From: Rubripirellula sp.
GTDB lineage: Bacteria; Planctomycetota; Planctomycetia; Pirellulales; Pirellulaceae
Length of the DNA: 34,358 nt
Assembly: GCA_012270065.1 (NCBI GenBank)
Contig: JAAXJB010000013.1
Span: 1-34,358 of the forward strand
Reading direction: 5' to 3'
In this document: positions 2,028 through 28,370 of the stretch, one piece after another
Numbering within the stretch: position 1 is the stretch's first letter
Layout: every line of letters begins with the position of its first letter
Program-made: the position numbers and the translations under genes
Notes under the pieces: generated by a model
Databases searched by the model: none
The model's input: only the letters and a program-made list of their open reading frames with translations
Told to the model about the DNA's origin: nothing

Positions 2028-5000
2028 TCATTTGTTTACGTCGGGCATGAGGGGGATCTGCTTTTCACTTTGCATGTAAGCGAAAAGGTCACGGACTTGC
2101 TGCTCACTCAGATTCTCCAGTAGCCCTTCCGGCATGAGCGATGTTTCTTGTTGTTGTCTTCGCTCGATGGATGCGATGGGAAAGGATTCGCGTCTGTCAG
2201 CTGTCTGGATCGTAATGGTTTGATTGTCCTCACGGACGGGGATGCCAGTCATGACTCGACCATCGTCGAGCAGAAAAACAGACTGTCTCATTCCTCGTGG
2301 TACGATGCGGCTTGGATCGATAAGGTTATCCAGCAAGTAATCGATGCTGTCACGATTGGAACCTGTCAGGTCCGGGCCGACATCCTGACCTTGTCCGTAC
2401 ATCTTGTGGCAGTTGGCGCACAACCTGTTGAAAAGCAATCTTCCGTTTGGCAGATCCGGTGGAATTTGCGCCGCGTGGGTTGATTGTCCCTGATGAGTTC
2501 CAAGTGCAATTGATCGATAATGGTCAATTCGCTTTTCCTTTTCCTTGCTCGACGTACGCACAGCCCCCCAGTGTTCGGCGAGGAGTCTGTTCACTTCTGG
2601 GACACCGAGGTTGGCGATCCGGCTTGCCGTGCCAGCGGGGATATCCACTGCGGCAATCTTCCCATCGGCGATCCCTTGCAACAGAGAGATGGCATATTCG
2701 GGACGTGACGCGAGCGTTTCAATGATTGCCGGTCTGTGGTCGTGTTTGGCGTTGCCGTACATGTTCAGTAGTTGTTCGGGTGCCTTGGTTGAGGCGTGTT
2801 GTGCAAGGCCCCGGATTGCATCAGCACCGACAATTCGATCGGACTTGAGCGAAAGCAGTGTTCGATTCAGTTGCTCTGTGCCGGTTTCAATAACGACTTT
2901 GAGTGCCTGTCTGCGGGCCGCAGGATCAGCGTCTTTGTCTTGTGCGAGTTTCAGAAGTGAATCAACCGTCCTGCCATCTCCAAACAGCACGAGAAGCTCA
3001 TTGGCAAGAGCCTTGATGCGCGGGTTGCCAACATTTTGGTGCAGTTGCAGGAGCGTTAACCAATGCGGCTGCGCGGTAAGTTTGCGACGTCCACGAAATG
3101 CGTGTGTCATGCCCTCAAGATAGTCAATGGCTCGATCCGGGGAGGCTTTGGCAGCAGCAACAAGTAGCGTGGAAATGTATTGCGGATGGCTGTCGATTTC
3201 GGACGCCAGACGACGGGCCGTGTGACGCCTCAGCAGAGGCATGTATGTGTTTTGGGCTAACTGGATCGCCTGTTTTGGGTTGTCCATCACTGCGGATTCA
3301 ATCCCATACCAGATCAGCAGCGGTTGCACTCGGTCACCGACATCGTCTTGCTGCATCGCAAGTTTCTCGGCGAGGGGCCAACGACGTTGCAGCGGCAGCT
3401 TTTGCAGTGCTGATGCGAGGAAAAGCCTTACCAGCGGTGAGGTTTCAGTTTCTGCAAGTTTTGTGAACGAATTTGCAACATGATTCACTTGTTCGGGGGA
3501 ATCAGTGAGTAGCTGTACTGCCCACAGCCGTATGTGGGCACTTGGATGGTTCAGAAGCTGAAGTAGCCAGGGCTCGGGGGCCGCGTTGATACTTGCCAGG
3601 CACCAAAGCGCTCTCAGTTTTCGGGTGACGTCGACATCGCCATGGAAGATGACCATTAGTTCTTTCACGGCTTGGTCCATGTTCTGATCCGAATTCGCCA
3701 TCTCCTGTAAACGTCGGCGGGCGTGGCGTACAAACCAGTCATTTTGGTCTAGTTGTAAGCGCACGAGCTGCTCAGGGTCCGCACGGACCAATTGTTCAAT
3801 TGTCGCGCTGCTGGGTTTCGAGTTGTGGCGACCAGTGTAAATGATCTTGTAGATTCTTCCGCTTGTGCGGTGCACACCATCACGGTCATGGCATTCTCCC
3901 AAGTCAGACCAGTCGGTGAGATAAACATCACCATCTGGACCATATTTGAGTTCAACGCCGCGAAACCATGGGTCGTTCGCAATCAGAAAGTCTTTGCCAT
4001 GTGTCGCACGATAGCTGTTGCCCTCGCGGATTAAATTGTCCATGTTCACGCGCCGTCCGTGAGTGTTGCACATGAATATGGCATTGTGAAAACTGCTGGG
4101 CCACTTACCGCCTTGATAGATCATGCCGCCGGCATGTGAGTGTCCGCCACCATGTGAGTCGTGTCGACCGTCGTACTTCTTGCGATTTGCGTTGTTGGTG
4201 ACGCCCGGTTGGCCCTTGGTATCCCAGTGGAAATGATCAGCAGTCGGGCCGATGAGTTCGTACAGGTGTGGATTGAAGTCATCTCCGAACATCCGCTGAT
4301 AATGCGCCCCCGGTACGACGTGCCATAGGTGATTGATCACGTTGTTTGTGAAAAACCACTGACCGTGCTGGTCGTAGTCGAGGCCCCACGGGTTGGTCGT
4401 GCCATGGGTGACAACTTCAAACTTCTGACGAGTAGGATGATAACGCCAAATGGAACAGTTGAGCTTTGTGCTCTTTCCCTCGGGAGAATCTGCCGTCCTG
4501 ACGTGGGATGTATCGGTAATGCCGTGTCGCCCATAAAGCCAACCATCAGGGCCCCAGCGAAGCCCGTTCACCATGTTGTGCCGTGCACGTGTACTGAACC
4601 CATCAAGCAACGCGATGGGGGCACTGTCGGGGACATCGTTCCTGTCACGGTCAGGAATGAAAAGCAGATTTGGAGCTGAGGTAACCCAAACACCACCAAA
4701 GCCAAGTGTGATACCAGTGACTCGTTGACCCTCGTCCCAGAATATCTTTCGGTGATCGTGTTCACCATCGCCATCGGTGTCCTCGAGGATCACGATACGA
4801 TCTTTCAGGTTCAGATCGTAATCACCCTGATAGGTATAGCATTCTACTACCCACAGACGGCCTTGATCATCAAATTCAAATGCGATGGGTTGGTGTACGT
4901 CTGGTTCCCCCGCAAAAAGTCGGATGTGAAAATCCTCCGGAACAGTAATTTTTGCGACCGACTGTTCAGGGGTGGGAGGATGTTGACCCGCGGGTTGCGT

Positions 5001-5219
5001 ATTGACTGCGTATTCGGAGTCAGACTTTTGGGCTAAAAGACCCTGAACTGGGATATGACAGAAAAGCACGAATAAAATAACGCAACCGCTCGCTCGCCCG
5101 CTTAGTGTGTTGAATGAAAAAAGCTGTTGCGGATGCCTCAACCAGATGGGATGAAGGGAAAGCTTGAGGAATTCACCGCATGAGACTTCGTGCTGCGGAG
5201 TACTTTTCTGTTTCAGCAT
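2028..5219 (-). CDS. PVC-type membrane-bound dehydrogenase with HEAT repeats and C-terminal heme domain
   Basis: This large exported protein matches the Pirellula/Verrucomicrobium dehydrogenase architecture (TIGR02604 N-terminal domain, TIGR02603 heme domain). The N-terminal half is a sugar-dehydrogenase-like beta-propeller (motifs FEFDDQGRLWVVE, LRWGPDGWLYGRHG, LKYGPDGDVYLTDWSD). HEAT-like helices fill the middle. A single c-type heme site, CANCH, lies about 125 residues from the C-terminus, followed by the typical VGPDLTGSNRDSIDYLLDNLIDPS block. The protein is presumably periplasmic and passes electrons from an unknown substrate to the heme. The open frame extends to a TTG at 5285. The ATG at 5219 is chosen here; a TTG at 5141 would place the signal segment (CVILFVLFCHIPVQGLLAQ) nearer the N-terminus and is equally possible. 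None of these starts has a clear Shine-Dalgarno. A short leader ORF ends 16 bases upstream of the ATG. Confidence 0.9.
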   Translation of the reverse strand: MLKQKSTPQHEVSCGEFLKLSLHPIWLRHPQQLFSFNTLSGRASGCVILFVLFCHIPVQGLLAQKSDSEYAVNTQPAGQHPPTPEQSVAKITVPEDFHIRLFAGEPDVHQPIAFEFDDQGRLWVVECYTYQGDYDLNLKDRIVILEDTDGDGEHDHRKIFWDEGQRVTGITLGFGGVWVTSAPNLLFIPDRDRNDVPDSAPIALLDGFSTRARHNMVNGLRWGPDGWLYGRHGITDTSHVRTADSPEGKSTKLNCSIWRYHPTRQKFEVVTHGTTNPWGLDYDQHGQWFFTNNVINHLWHVVPGAHYQRMFGDDFNPHLYELIGPTADHFHWDTKGQPGVTNNANRKKYDGRHDSHGGGHSHAGGMIYQGGKWPSSFHNAIFMCNTHGRRVNMDNLIREGNSYRATHGKDFLIANDPWFRGVELKYGPDGDVYLTDWSDLGECHDRDGVHRTSGRIYKIIYTGRHNSKPSSATIEQLVRADPEQLVRLQLDQNDWFVRHARRRLQEMANSDQNMDQAVKELMVIFHGDVDVTRKLRALWCLASINAAPEPWLLQLLNHPSAHIRLWAVQLLTDSPEQVNHVANSFTKLAETETSPLVRLFLASALQKLPLQRRWPLAEKLAMQQDDVGDRVQPLLIWYGIESAVMDNPKQAIQLAQNTYMPLLRRHTARRLASEIDSHPQYISTLLVAAAKASPDRAIDYLEGMTHAFRGRRKLTAQPHWLTLLQLHQNVGNPRIKALANELLVLFGDGRTVDSLLKLAQDKDADPAARRQALKVVIETGTEQLNRTLLSLKSDRIVGADAIRGLAQHASTKAPEQLLNMYGNAKHDHRPAIIETLASRPEYAISLLQGIADGKIAAVDIPAGTASRIANLGVPEVNRLLAEHWGAVRTSSKEKEKRIDHYRSIALGTHQGQSTHAAQIPPDLPNGRLLFNRLCANCHKMYGQGQDVGPDLTGSNRDSIDYLLDNLIDPSRIVPRGMRQSVFLLDDGRVMTGIPVREDNQTITIQTADRRESFPIASIERRQQQETSLMPEGLLENLSEQQVRDLFAYMQSEKQIPLMPDVNK

Positions 5220-5235
5220 TTGGGATGGAACTGGG

Positions 5236-5298
5236 CTACGTGGAATGAGGTGATATGGGCCTGCTGTTGTGATACTGTCCACCAAGTGTCGATTTCAT
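5236..5298 (-). CDS. Possible 20-residue leader peptide before the dehydrogenase gene
   Basis: On the minus strand an ATG at 5298 follows a purine-rich AAAGGA (5302-5307), which is a far better ribosome site than any start of the downstream dehydrogenase has. The frame runs 20 codons (MKSTLGGQYHNSRPISPHST) to a TAG at 5236-5238, 16 bases before the ATG at 5219. This layout would suit a translationally coupled leader, but it could be chance. The peptide has no recognisable attenuation codon run. Confidence 0.25.
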   Translation of the reverse strand: MKSTLGGQYHNSRPISPHST

Positions 5299-25358: not shown

Positions 25359-27011
25359 TCAGTTTTCTGGTTCGCAGTAATCACTCATGGGAGGACAGCT
25401 GCAGACCAGGTTTCGGTCACCGTAGGTATTGTCAATTCGTCCCACGGCCGGCCAGAACTTTGACTGTCGAAGCCAGGGGGTTGGCCATGCTGCCTGCGAG
25501 CGGGGGTAGGAATGGGGCCATTCGTCGCTGCCGATTTTCTGCATGGTGTGCGGTGCGTTTCGCAGAGGGTTGTCATCCCGATCCATGTCGCCATTTTCGA
25601 TTGCCCGTATTTCCTCGCGGATCGAAAGCATGGCATCACAAAAACGGTCAAGCTCGACTTTTGACTCACTCTCGGTTGGTTCGATCATCAGGGTTCCGGG
25701 AACTGGCCATGACATAGTCGGGCCATGAAAACCGTAGTCGATCAAACGTTTTGCGATATCGTCGATGCTGACGCCAGCGGATTTTTCGAAAGGTCGACAG
25801 TCCACAATGAACTCATGAGCGACGTAACCGTTGCTGTCGGTGTACAGGATGTCGAACTCACCTTGAAGTCGTTTTGCCATGTAGTTGGCATTCAGGATGG
25901 CAACCTGCGTTGCTTTCTTGAGGCCCAACCCGCCCATCATGCCGATGTACACGTAACTGATGGTGAGGATGCTGGGACTGCCGTACGGTGCCGCGGAAAC
26001 GGGACCGATTGCGAACTCGCCAGCAGTGTCAGGACGCTCCACCGGGTGCTCCGGCAGGAACGGTACCAATTGGGACGCCACGCCGATCGGGCCCATGCCC
26101 GGACCACCGCCGCCATGCGGTATGCAGAATGTTTTGTGGAGATTCAAGTGGCACACGTCGGCTCCGCAGTGCCCCGGGCTTGTCAGGCCAACTTGGGCAT
26201 TCATATTGGCGCCGTCCATGTATACCTGACCGCCGTGTTCATGGATGATGTCGCAGACCTCTCGGATCGTTGACTCGAAGACGCCGTGTGTGGACGGGTA
26301 AGTGATCATGAGTGCCGACAGGTTTTCGGCGTGGCTGGAGGCTTTTTCACGCAGGTCGTCCATATCGATGTCGCCACGATCATTGCATTTGATCGCCACT
26401 ACTTTCATTCCAGCCATGACGGCTGAGGCTGGGTTGGTACCGTGAGCCGATGTTGGAATCAGGCAGACATCGCGCGCATTCTCACGGCCTTCAGTACGCG
26501 CCATGTGTTCGTGATAAGCGCGGATGACAAGCAAACCGGCGTACTCACCCTGGGCACCTGCATTGGGTTGCAGACTGATCGCAGCAAACCCGGTGACTTC
26601 ACAGAGCCATGATTCAAGTTCGCGGAAGATGTGCGTGTATCCACGCCACTGGGTGTCTGGTGCAAATGGATGGATGTTTGCAAATTCGGGCCATGTGACC
26701 GGGATCATTTCACTGGTTGCGTTCAGTTTCATGGTGCAGGATCCCAGCGGGATCATCGAGTGCGCCAGAGACAGATCGCGACCCATCAGACGGAAAATGT
26801 ATCGGAGTAATTCCGTTTCGCTGTGATAAGAGTTGAATACTTCATGGGTCATGAAGGAGGTGGTGCGCTCAAACTGGTCGAGTTCGAGCATGCCCTCGTC
26901 TTTGGCTTCGTCAAGAAGTTGGTCAACGTCAAATCCTGTGAAGTGCCCAAAGTTGAAGGCAGCGAGCAGGTCGGCAATCAAGCTTCGATCCGCGGTTTCG
27001 TCGAAAGTCAC
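25359..27011 (-). CDS. gcvP: Glycine decarboxylase (P protein), C-terminal half
   Basis: This is the PLP-bearing half of the P protein, which decarboxylates glycine and loads the aminomethyl group on GcvH. Counting from the GTG at 27011, the PLP lysine is K293 in [40 protein letters not shown] is the strongly conserved substrate-side block, and the C-terminus ([19 protein letters not shown]) is complete. The same frame continues upstream without another stop ([12 protein letters not shown]) to an in-frame TGA at 27048-27050, and the N-terminal half lies beyond it. The alignment across the TGA is continuous with single-chain GcvP, so the start at 27011 is only the longest post-stop one. It could be restarted there or only be made by readthrough. 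No gcvT or gcvH is adjacent. Confidence 0.85.
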
Positions 27012-27047
27012 ACCCAGCGTCCCGTCTTCATACTCTCGGAGGTGGAT

Positions 27048-27050
27048 TCA
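27048..27050 (-). other. In-frame TGA interrupting gcvP
   Basis: Minus-strand codons read ...GAA CGT TGA ATC CAC CTC CGA..., with both flanking halves in one phase and no indel. Vertebrate GLDC has Gln at this position (AQRQINFR). A CGA-to-TGA (Arg) or CAA/GGA-to-TGA change would explain it. TGA is a normal stop elsewhere in this window (ileS, purN, uvrA-neighbour rhomboid, DUF1571), so the code is not reassigned. Confidence 0.9.
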
Positions 27051-28370
27051 ACGTTCGCGAGCCGCATCGGCTACCTCTCGTGCCGCATGGGTTCGTCCCT
27101 TGCCCAGCCGGATACGCAAGGTGTCAAACACCGGTCCTGCACTGAGCGTGTGATGTCCAAGGCGGGCAAGTCCACGGATGAGGGCACAGGTGAAAGCTTG
27201 CGTCCGTCTGGCGATCCGCTTTAATCCTTCGGGGCCATGATAGACACCGTAAAACGAGTTGATGATGGCCAACAACGCTTGCGCTGTGCAAATATTGCTC
27301 GTAGCTTTATCACGGCGAATATGCTGTTCGCGGGTCTGCATCGCCATTCGCAGAGCGGGGTTCCCGGCAGAGTCTTTGGAGACGCCGATGATCCGTCCAG
27401 GCAACTTGCGTGCGTGTCTCTGCTCGGTCGCGATAAACGCGGCATGAGGACCGCCAAGCCCCATTGGGACGCCAAAGCGTTGGGCGCTGCCCACGCATAT
27501 GTCGGCTCCCCACTCCCCGGGTGGCTTCAGCAGGGTCAAGGAAAGTAGATCTGCCGCGACGACTGTCATGCACTTGTTCTGCTTGGCGGCTTCTGCAATG
27601 GACGAGTAATCATTCAGGGTCCCGTCTGTTGTCGGGTATTGAAGCAGGATCCCGCATAGCCCTCCATCGCCGTAGTCGAAGTCAATTTCACTGGTCGGCC
27701 CGATGATGAGGTCGATGCCCAATCCAGTTGCGCGTGTCTTCAGCAGGGCGAGTGTCTGGGGGTGACAGGTGTCGCTTGCGAAGAAGCCTTTTTTGCGATG
27801 GCCCGATACAGCACAGCACATGGTCATCGCCTCCGCCGCAGCGGTCGCTTCATCGAGCAGGCTGGCACCGGCCAAGGGAAGTGCAGTCAGATCGGCAATC
27901 ATCGTCTGGAAATTGAGCAGAGCTTCGAGGCGGCCCTGCGCGATCTCTGCCTGATACGGTGTGTACTGCGTGTACCAGCCGGGGTTCTCGAGAACGTTTC
28001 GCAGAATCACGGGTGGTGTGATCGTGCCTGTGTACCCCATGCCGATGCATGACCGATAAACTTTGTTTTTCGCCGCAATGGTTGCCAAGCCACTGAGAAA
28101 TTCGTGTTCGCCACGCGGTTCCGGGATATTCAGAGTGGTGTCAGCCTGAATGTCCGAGGGGATGGTGGCAGTGGTCAAGGCATCCAGGCTGCTGAAACCA
28201 AGGGTCTCGAGCATGCATTCGATATCATCGTCGCCGGGGCCGATATGCCTTCCAACAAATGCGTCCGCATGGTCAAGCAGACTTGCCGACTCGGTCGGTA
28301 ACCCCGCGCTCGACAGGTGAGCGTGCTCAGTCTGTTCCGGTCTTGTTTTGGTTTCGGTTGGATTCGTCAT
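27048..28370 (-). CDS. gcvP: Glycine decarboxylase (P protein), N-terminal half
   Basis: This 440-residue product corresponds to the N-terminal, non-PLP half of GcvP. It has [17 protein letters not shown] near the start, then [50 protein letters not shown], and KTREQH-type [21 protein letters not shown] at its end, all P-protein hallmarks. The frame extends to a TTG at 28433, but the ATG at 28370 fits; the leader of about 30 residues before GRHIGP is longer than usual. It stops at the in-frame TGA, 12 codons before the downstream half's first start. Two-subunit P proteins (GcvPA/GcvPB) split at about the same domain boundary, so the halves could still assemble if the second is translated. Confidence 0.85.

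Follow-up and report, generated by a model that had tools for sequence, protein, structure and literature searches.

The single gcvP gene of this planctomycete, which encodes the fused form of the glycine dehydrogenase P-protein, is interrupted by one in-frame TGA at codon 441, and no stop occurs at the aligned position in any of 99 related loci (98 have a sense codon there and one an alignment gap). The TGA is very probably a nonsense codon confined to one genome, in an otherwise normal gene, due either to a consensus error or to a recent mutation. We place about half of the probability on a consensus error in the draft assembly and about a third on a real mutation that arose recently in the strain sequenced. 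This reading is preferred because of the absence of the stop from the 99 loci, because only two of the 106 near-full-length fused gcvP matches listed for the family contain a truly internal stop, and because the gene shows no decay along its length.

The gcvP locus and its reading frame

The window, i.e., the whole stretch of DNA that was analysed, is one entire contig of 34,358 bases. It belongs to a draft assembly of 7.0 Mb (122 contigs, 99.5% complete) whose closest named relatives are planctomycete bins and isolates. The features of the locus are as follows.

25359..28370, minus strand: gcvP (glycine dehydrogenase, P-protein, fused form), 1003 codons plus stop, with one in-frame TGA inside
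27048..27050, minus strand: the in-frame TGA, gcvP codon 441, as read in the sequence itself, with no stop here in the 99 related loci
27051..28370, minus strand: open part 5' of the TGA, 440 codons, a GcvPA-like half minus its last ~30-35 residues (TIGR00461, NF001696)
25362..27047, minus strand: open part 3' of the TGA, 562 codons, the last stretch of the N half followed by an entire GcvPB-like half that includes the PLP region (TIGR00461, NF003346, Pfam GcvP2_C)
26955..27047, minus strand: codons 442-472, 3' of the TGA, predicted to close the small domain of the N half with two strands and a helix (AlphaFold2; Pfam GDC-P end at 472)
27042..27044, minus strand: gcvP codon 443, His, where 98 of the 99 related loci have Asn
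27009..27011, minus strand: GTG codon 454, the first in-frame ATG, GTG or TTG past the TGA

The frame opens with an ATG at 28370 and closes with a normal terminal TGA, codon 441 being the sole stop within it. Comparison with relatives revealed no frame-breaking indel in gcvP, and both sides of the TGA share one frame. The original prediction of an in-frame TGA without an indel, located between 27011 and 27062, is thus borne out; this span includes the TGA, and 27011 belongs to the GTG of codon 454. When the TGA is read through, the protein scores 1427.8 bits against the fused P-protein model TIGR00461 (cut-off 859.2), over residues 41-992 of 1003 and profile positions 1-939 of 939. The HLNLHKTF stretch, whose lysine (K746) we take to be the PLP-binding residue of gcvP, is unbroken in the part after the TGA, in agreement with the earlier statement that the PLP lysine is intact. 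Around it, in the C half, most columns of the segment H741-G760, with the lysine motif and the glycine-rich loop, are invariant or nearly so in 61 sequences.

The window locus is the only place in the genome with gcvP matches; no second copy that could rescue it was found. The gcvT and gcvH genes lie intact side by side in the same genome, which rules out loss of the whole glycine cleavage system. The single gcvT, all three GcvH-family matches and all nine SelB-family matches of this genome are free of stops.

Codon 441 in related genomes

The 99 related loci comprise 19 from the genus and 80 others; L004 and L023 represent one contig, and the same apparently holds for L005 and L024. A gcvP match was found in 20 of the 22 genus genomes, that of the window included. 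Column 441 is variable: ten different residues, Gly, Arg, Gln and Lys among them, occur in the 99 relatives. Within the genus, the 19 further loci have Gly (nine), Gln (six), Ser (two), Asn (one) or His (one), and all seven nearest relatives have Gly. Two of the 99 relatives have Cys, but no locus of the genus does.

An intact codon in close relatives had been named beforehand as one half of an outcome that would refute the interpretation, and it is what these loci display; no TGA common to relatives was found at this codon. The suggestion that a C-to-T change in CGA would suffice to create the stop fits these residues less well: with Gly in every one of the nearest relatives and in nine of the 19 genus loci, none of which has Arg, CGA is not favoured as the ancestral codon.

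Position of the stop within the protein

The TGA had been described as falling exactly between the two homologous halves of the P-protein, which does not hold. On the read-through protein, the NCBIfam GcvPA model aligns to residues 47-469 (profile 9-439 of 447) and Pfam GDC-P to residues 41-472, up to its final profile position, 429. The GcvPB model reaches residue 516 with its profile position 54, which projects its start to about residue 462. From these ends and this projected start, the natural GcvPA/GcvPB joint is placed, at the level of profile alignments, some 20-35 codons downstream of codon 441, so that the TGA lies inside the N half, before the joint.

An AlphaFold2 model built from 61 aligned sequences (mean pLDDT 84.8, pTM 0.87) likewise puts codon 441, and with it the predicted cut, within the small domain of the N half. 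In this model, a strand (417-421) and a helix (427-439) precede codon 441, and two strands (442-446 and 452-455) and a helix (462-472) follow it. The same order of elements can be read from the model in the C half, with a strand (854-857), a helix (869-878), two strands (885-887 and 893-896) and a helix (904-925).

The two open parts are unequal when scored as separate chains. The part before the TGA matches the GcvPA model NF001696 over profile positions 9-400 of 447 with 327.9 bits, below the cut-off of 364, and so corresponds to an incomplete first chain. The part after the TGA scores 458.1 bits against the GcvPB model NF003346 (cut-off 441), as expected of a complete second chain, and 870.7 bits against TIGR00461, also above the cut-off. 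If the TGA is real and unrescued, the chain would end after residue 440, partway through the small domain of the N half; such a fragment would be expected to misfold and leave hardly any P-protein, or none. The cell would then lack glycine cleavage despite the remaining gcvT and gcvH.

Conservation along the gene and beside the stop

Of the 570 sites without variation in the rest of the genus, five are changed in the window's gcvP (0-10 in the 19 relatives), which indicates that the gene as a whole is not decaying. Synonymous sites are saturated in most comparisons, making dN/dS ratios of little use, and counts of private changes were used instead. Within the near clade, private base changes in gcvP versus ileS, the control gene described below, number 49 versus 93 in the window's genome, 40 versus 35 in G018, 62 versus 98 in G013, and 13-21 versus 24-35 in four others.

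Three of the five changes at genus-invariant sites (codons 432, 443 and 456) lie within 15 codons of the TGA (hypergeometric 0.0005, for a width picked after seeing the data); in the near clade alone, three of 18 changes fall within 20 codons of it (p 0.04). The His at codon 443, two codons past the TGA, is unique to the window's gcvP, the one locus without Asn having Leu, while the new residues at codons 432 and 456 are each found in nine of the 99 loci. This cluster beside the TGA could stem from faulty base calls over a short stretch, from constraint relaxed once a real stop had arisen, or from chance.

Internal stops in the family and in a control gene

A P-protein match is present in 233 of the 241 family genomes and in all 159 of those of good quality, so that a true loss would be unusual. 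Near-full-length fused gcvP was defined by a match starting at or before query position 53 and ending at or after position 996. Counted by hand among the matches listed, 106 meet this definition and come from 105 of the 241 family genomes, including that of the window. Six of the 106 are flagged with a stop, which is truly internal in two: the window's gcvP and that of G078 (L148), with a TGA at query codon 687 and, in the same bin, a separate GcvPB-like match. The others are ruled out as internal stops, the stop being the normal gene end in G100, G111 and G021 and lying two codons ahead of the matched start in G064.

Several other arrangements were seen in this survey. G006 contributes two fused copies to the 106, with 88% and 57% identity to the window's gcvP. 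In a partial match outside the 106, from G166 (L151), a TGA directly follows query residue 636, 17 bases short of a contig end, and the second piece is on another contig; we tentatively take this TGA for a contig-end effect. The two-piece gcvP genes of G154 and G063 are ruled out as natural fissions near the same point, one piece of each ending at or within 14 bases of a contig end. In G114 (L153) and G044 (L154), the fused gcvP is found in two neighbouring pieces and is apparently frame-shifted.

The control gene was ileS, whose loss a cell should not survive. Seventeen loci were aligned, that of the window's own genome included; the other five of the 22 genus genomes have ileS matches in pieces (G001, G008), distant matches only (G011, G020) or no listed match (G010), with no stop flagged among the matches concerned. 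One of the 17 aligned loci has an in-frame stop, a TAG at codon 296 in the numbering of the window's ileS, in a draft of 550 contigs from the same genus (G009, L137). It is presumably an assembly fault, and it illustrates that stray stops occur in drafts of this genus.

Within the window, 15 of 17 genes have a counterpart for comparison in at least one of two syntenic relatives (all except those at 7-1836 and 2028-5285), and only gcvP is interrupted by an internal stop. The assembly therefore seems locally good, which speaks against an error. The cluster of changes and the replacement of Asn443 by His also weigh against the preferred reading; they fit either bad calls or real relaxed constraint.

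Alternative explanations

The options listed originally, i.e., a nonsense mutation, a sequencing error, readthrough or a tolerated split, with selenocysteine as unlikely, form a sound set. The boldest reading compatible with these data, although itself unlikely, is that the TGA is real, fixed in the species and tolerated: a leaky stop or a restart just past it would give a working P-protein whose N half is broken within its small domain. The nearby changes, among them the loss of the nearly invariant Asn, would be the first sign of relaxed constraint at the new breakpoint.

Leaky readthrough taken by itself, in which near-cognate decoding of UGA would yield enough full-length P-protein at a site accepting many residues, is slightly less likely again. 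It would fit the ten residues tolerated at this column and the conservation of the full-length frame, but no suppressor tRNA was seen among the 40 typed tRNA places (150 of 283 candidates scored), where a UCA anticodon occurs in tRNA-Sec only and tRNA-Trp has CCA. Nor was a mark of programmed readthrough found, as far as the RNA fold 3' of the TGA goes, this fold being no better than those of shuffled sequences (z from +0.67 to +2.02).

The leading idea of the original prediction was a tolerated step from the fused to the split enzyme. Here, the TGA would be fixed in the species, translation would restart at GTG 454 or TTG 464, and the two chains would assemble as GcvPA and GcvPB do. Several observations are in keeping with it: both frames are open and conserved, the second part is a complete GcvPB-like half above its curated cut-off, the private changes cluster by the TGA as relaxed constraint at a new junction would have them do, and the two-chain GcvPA/GcvPB enzyme occurs naturally in the same family, fused P-proteins being found in some genera and two-chain ones in others, with low identity between the two.

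The position of the TGA, however, goes against such a step, since it precedes the natural joint and severs two predicted strands and a helix from the N half. Of the four GcvPA chains in the alignment, those of two two-chain family members (L198 and L200) were used, L199 and L201 being left out; they run 53 and 55 residues beyond the column aligned to codon 441. Moreover, no new start or ribosome site was found past the TGA: a start-type codon is also present at the positions of GTG 454 and TTG 464 in 8 and 15, respectively, of the 19 uninterrupted genus relatives, and the longest Shine-Dalgarno word upstream has 3 bases. The GcvPA/GcvPB pairs inspected in the family share ~39-46% identity with the C half of the window's gcvP, versus 53-88% between fused proteins; by sequence comparison, they seem to form a long-separated lineage instead of deriving recently from this gene. 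As none of the 99 relatives shares the TGA either, a tolerated fission is left without support and appears improbable.

An old pseudogene, in a lineage without glycine cleavage, is more improbable still: the TGA itself and the change at a nearly invariant Asn (codon 443) would agree with it, but the 1003 codons hold no further stop or frameshift, changes are not raised gene-wide, and gcvT and gcvH are intact and adjoining.

Selenocysteine at codon 441, which had already been judged unlikely, is the least probable of all, the column being variable and Cys rare in it. The genome does have the machinery, with a tRNA-Sec bearing a UCA anticodon, selB, and a gene that we take to be selA from recognition of its sequence, and the organism should therefore make selenoproteins.

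L103 (G000:C73:95291-100135) and L111 (G000:C29:30878-33970): selA and selB side by side, tRNA-Sec elsewhere

A loose SECIS rule is satisfied downstream of codon 441, but also by 23-25% of all gcvP and ileS codons, and, as noted above, the downstream RNA does not fold better than shuffled sequences. Planctomycete selenoproteins are known: the planctomycete P2 is reported to have an FmdB with Sec, for which homologs with Gly exist in three other planctomycetes (PMC4807772), so that Gly in relatives or missing Cys would not alone exclude selenocysteine. Against it, thiol redox homologs account for 15 of the 17 bacterial families in which Cys-to-Sec changes are reported (PMC1794560).

Comparison with known systems and meaning

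Over its whole length read through, the window's gcvP is like the fused GcvP proteins (TIGR00461; solved relatives 4lgl, 6i33 and 9uz6) in its PLP region, both halves and C-terminal domain, and differs from them by the stop at codon 441 and the His at 443. It resembles the two-chain GcvPA/GcvPB enzymes (NF001696, NF003346; 1wyt chains A and B) in having two open frames, each with most or all of one half, whereas its break comes ~20-35 codons too early, within GcvPA, and no start or ribosome site particular to the second frame was found. With the stop-interrupted genes of other drafts (ileS of G009, gcvP of G078), it has in common a single internal stop in a conserved gene, although it sits in a better assembly (122 contigs, 99.5% complete) and has further differences at codons close to the stop.

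This single stop in gcvP thus looks like an ordinary event. Should it prove to be an error or a recent mutation, its meaning would be limited to a caution for metabolic models, in which glycine cleavage could be miscalled as absent from this organism. If the TGA were instead truly fixed and tolerated, it would offer a rare view of a fused enzyme splitting at an unexpected point, as well as a test of how intact the first half of the P-protein must be.
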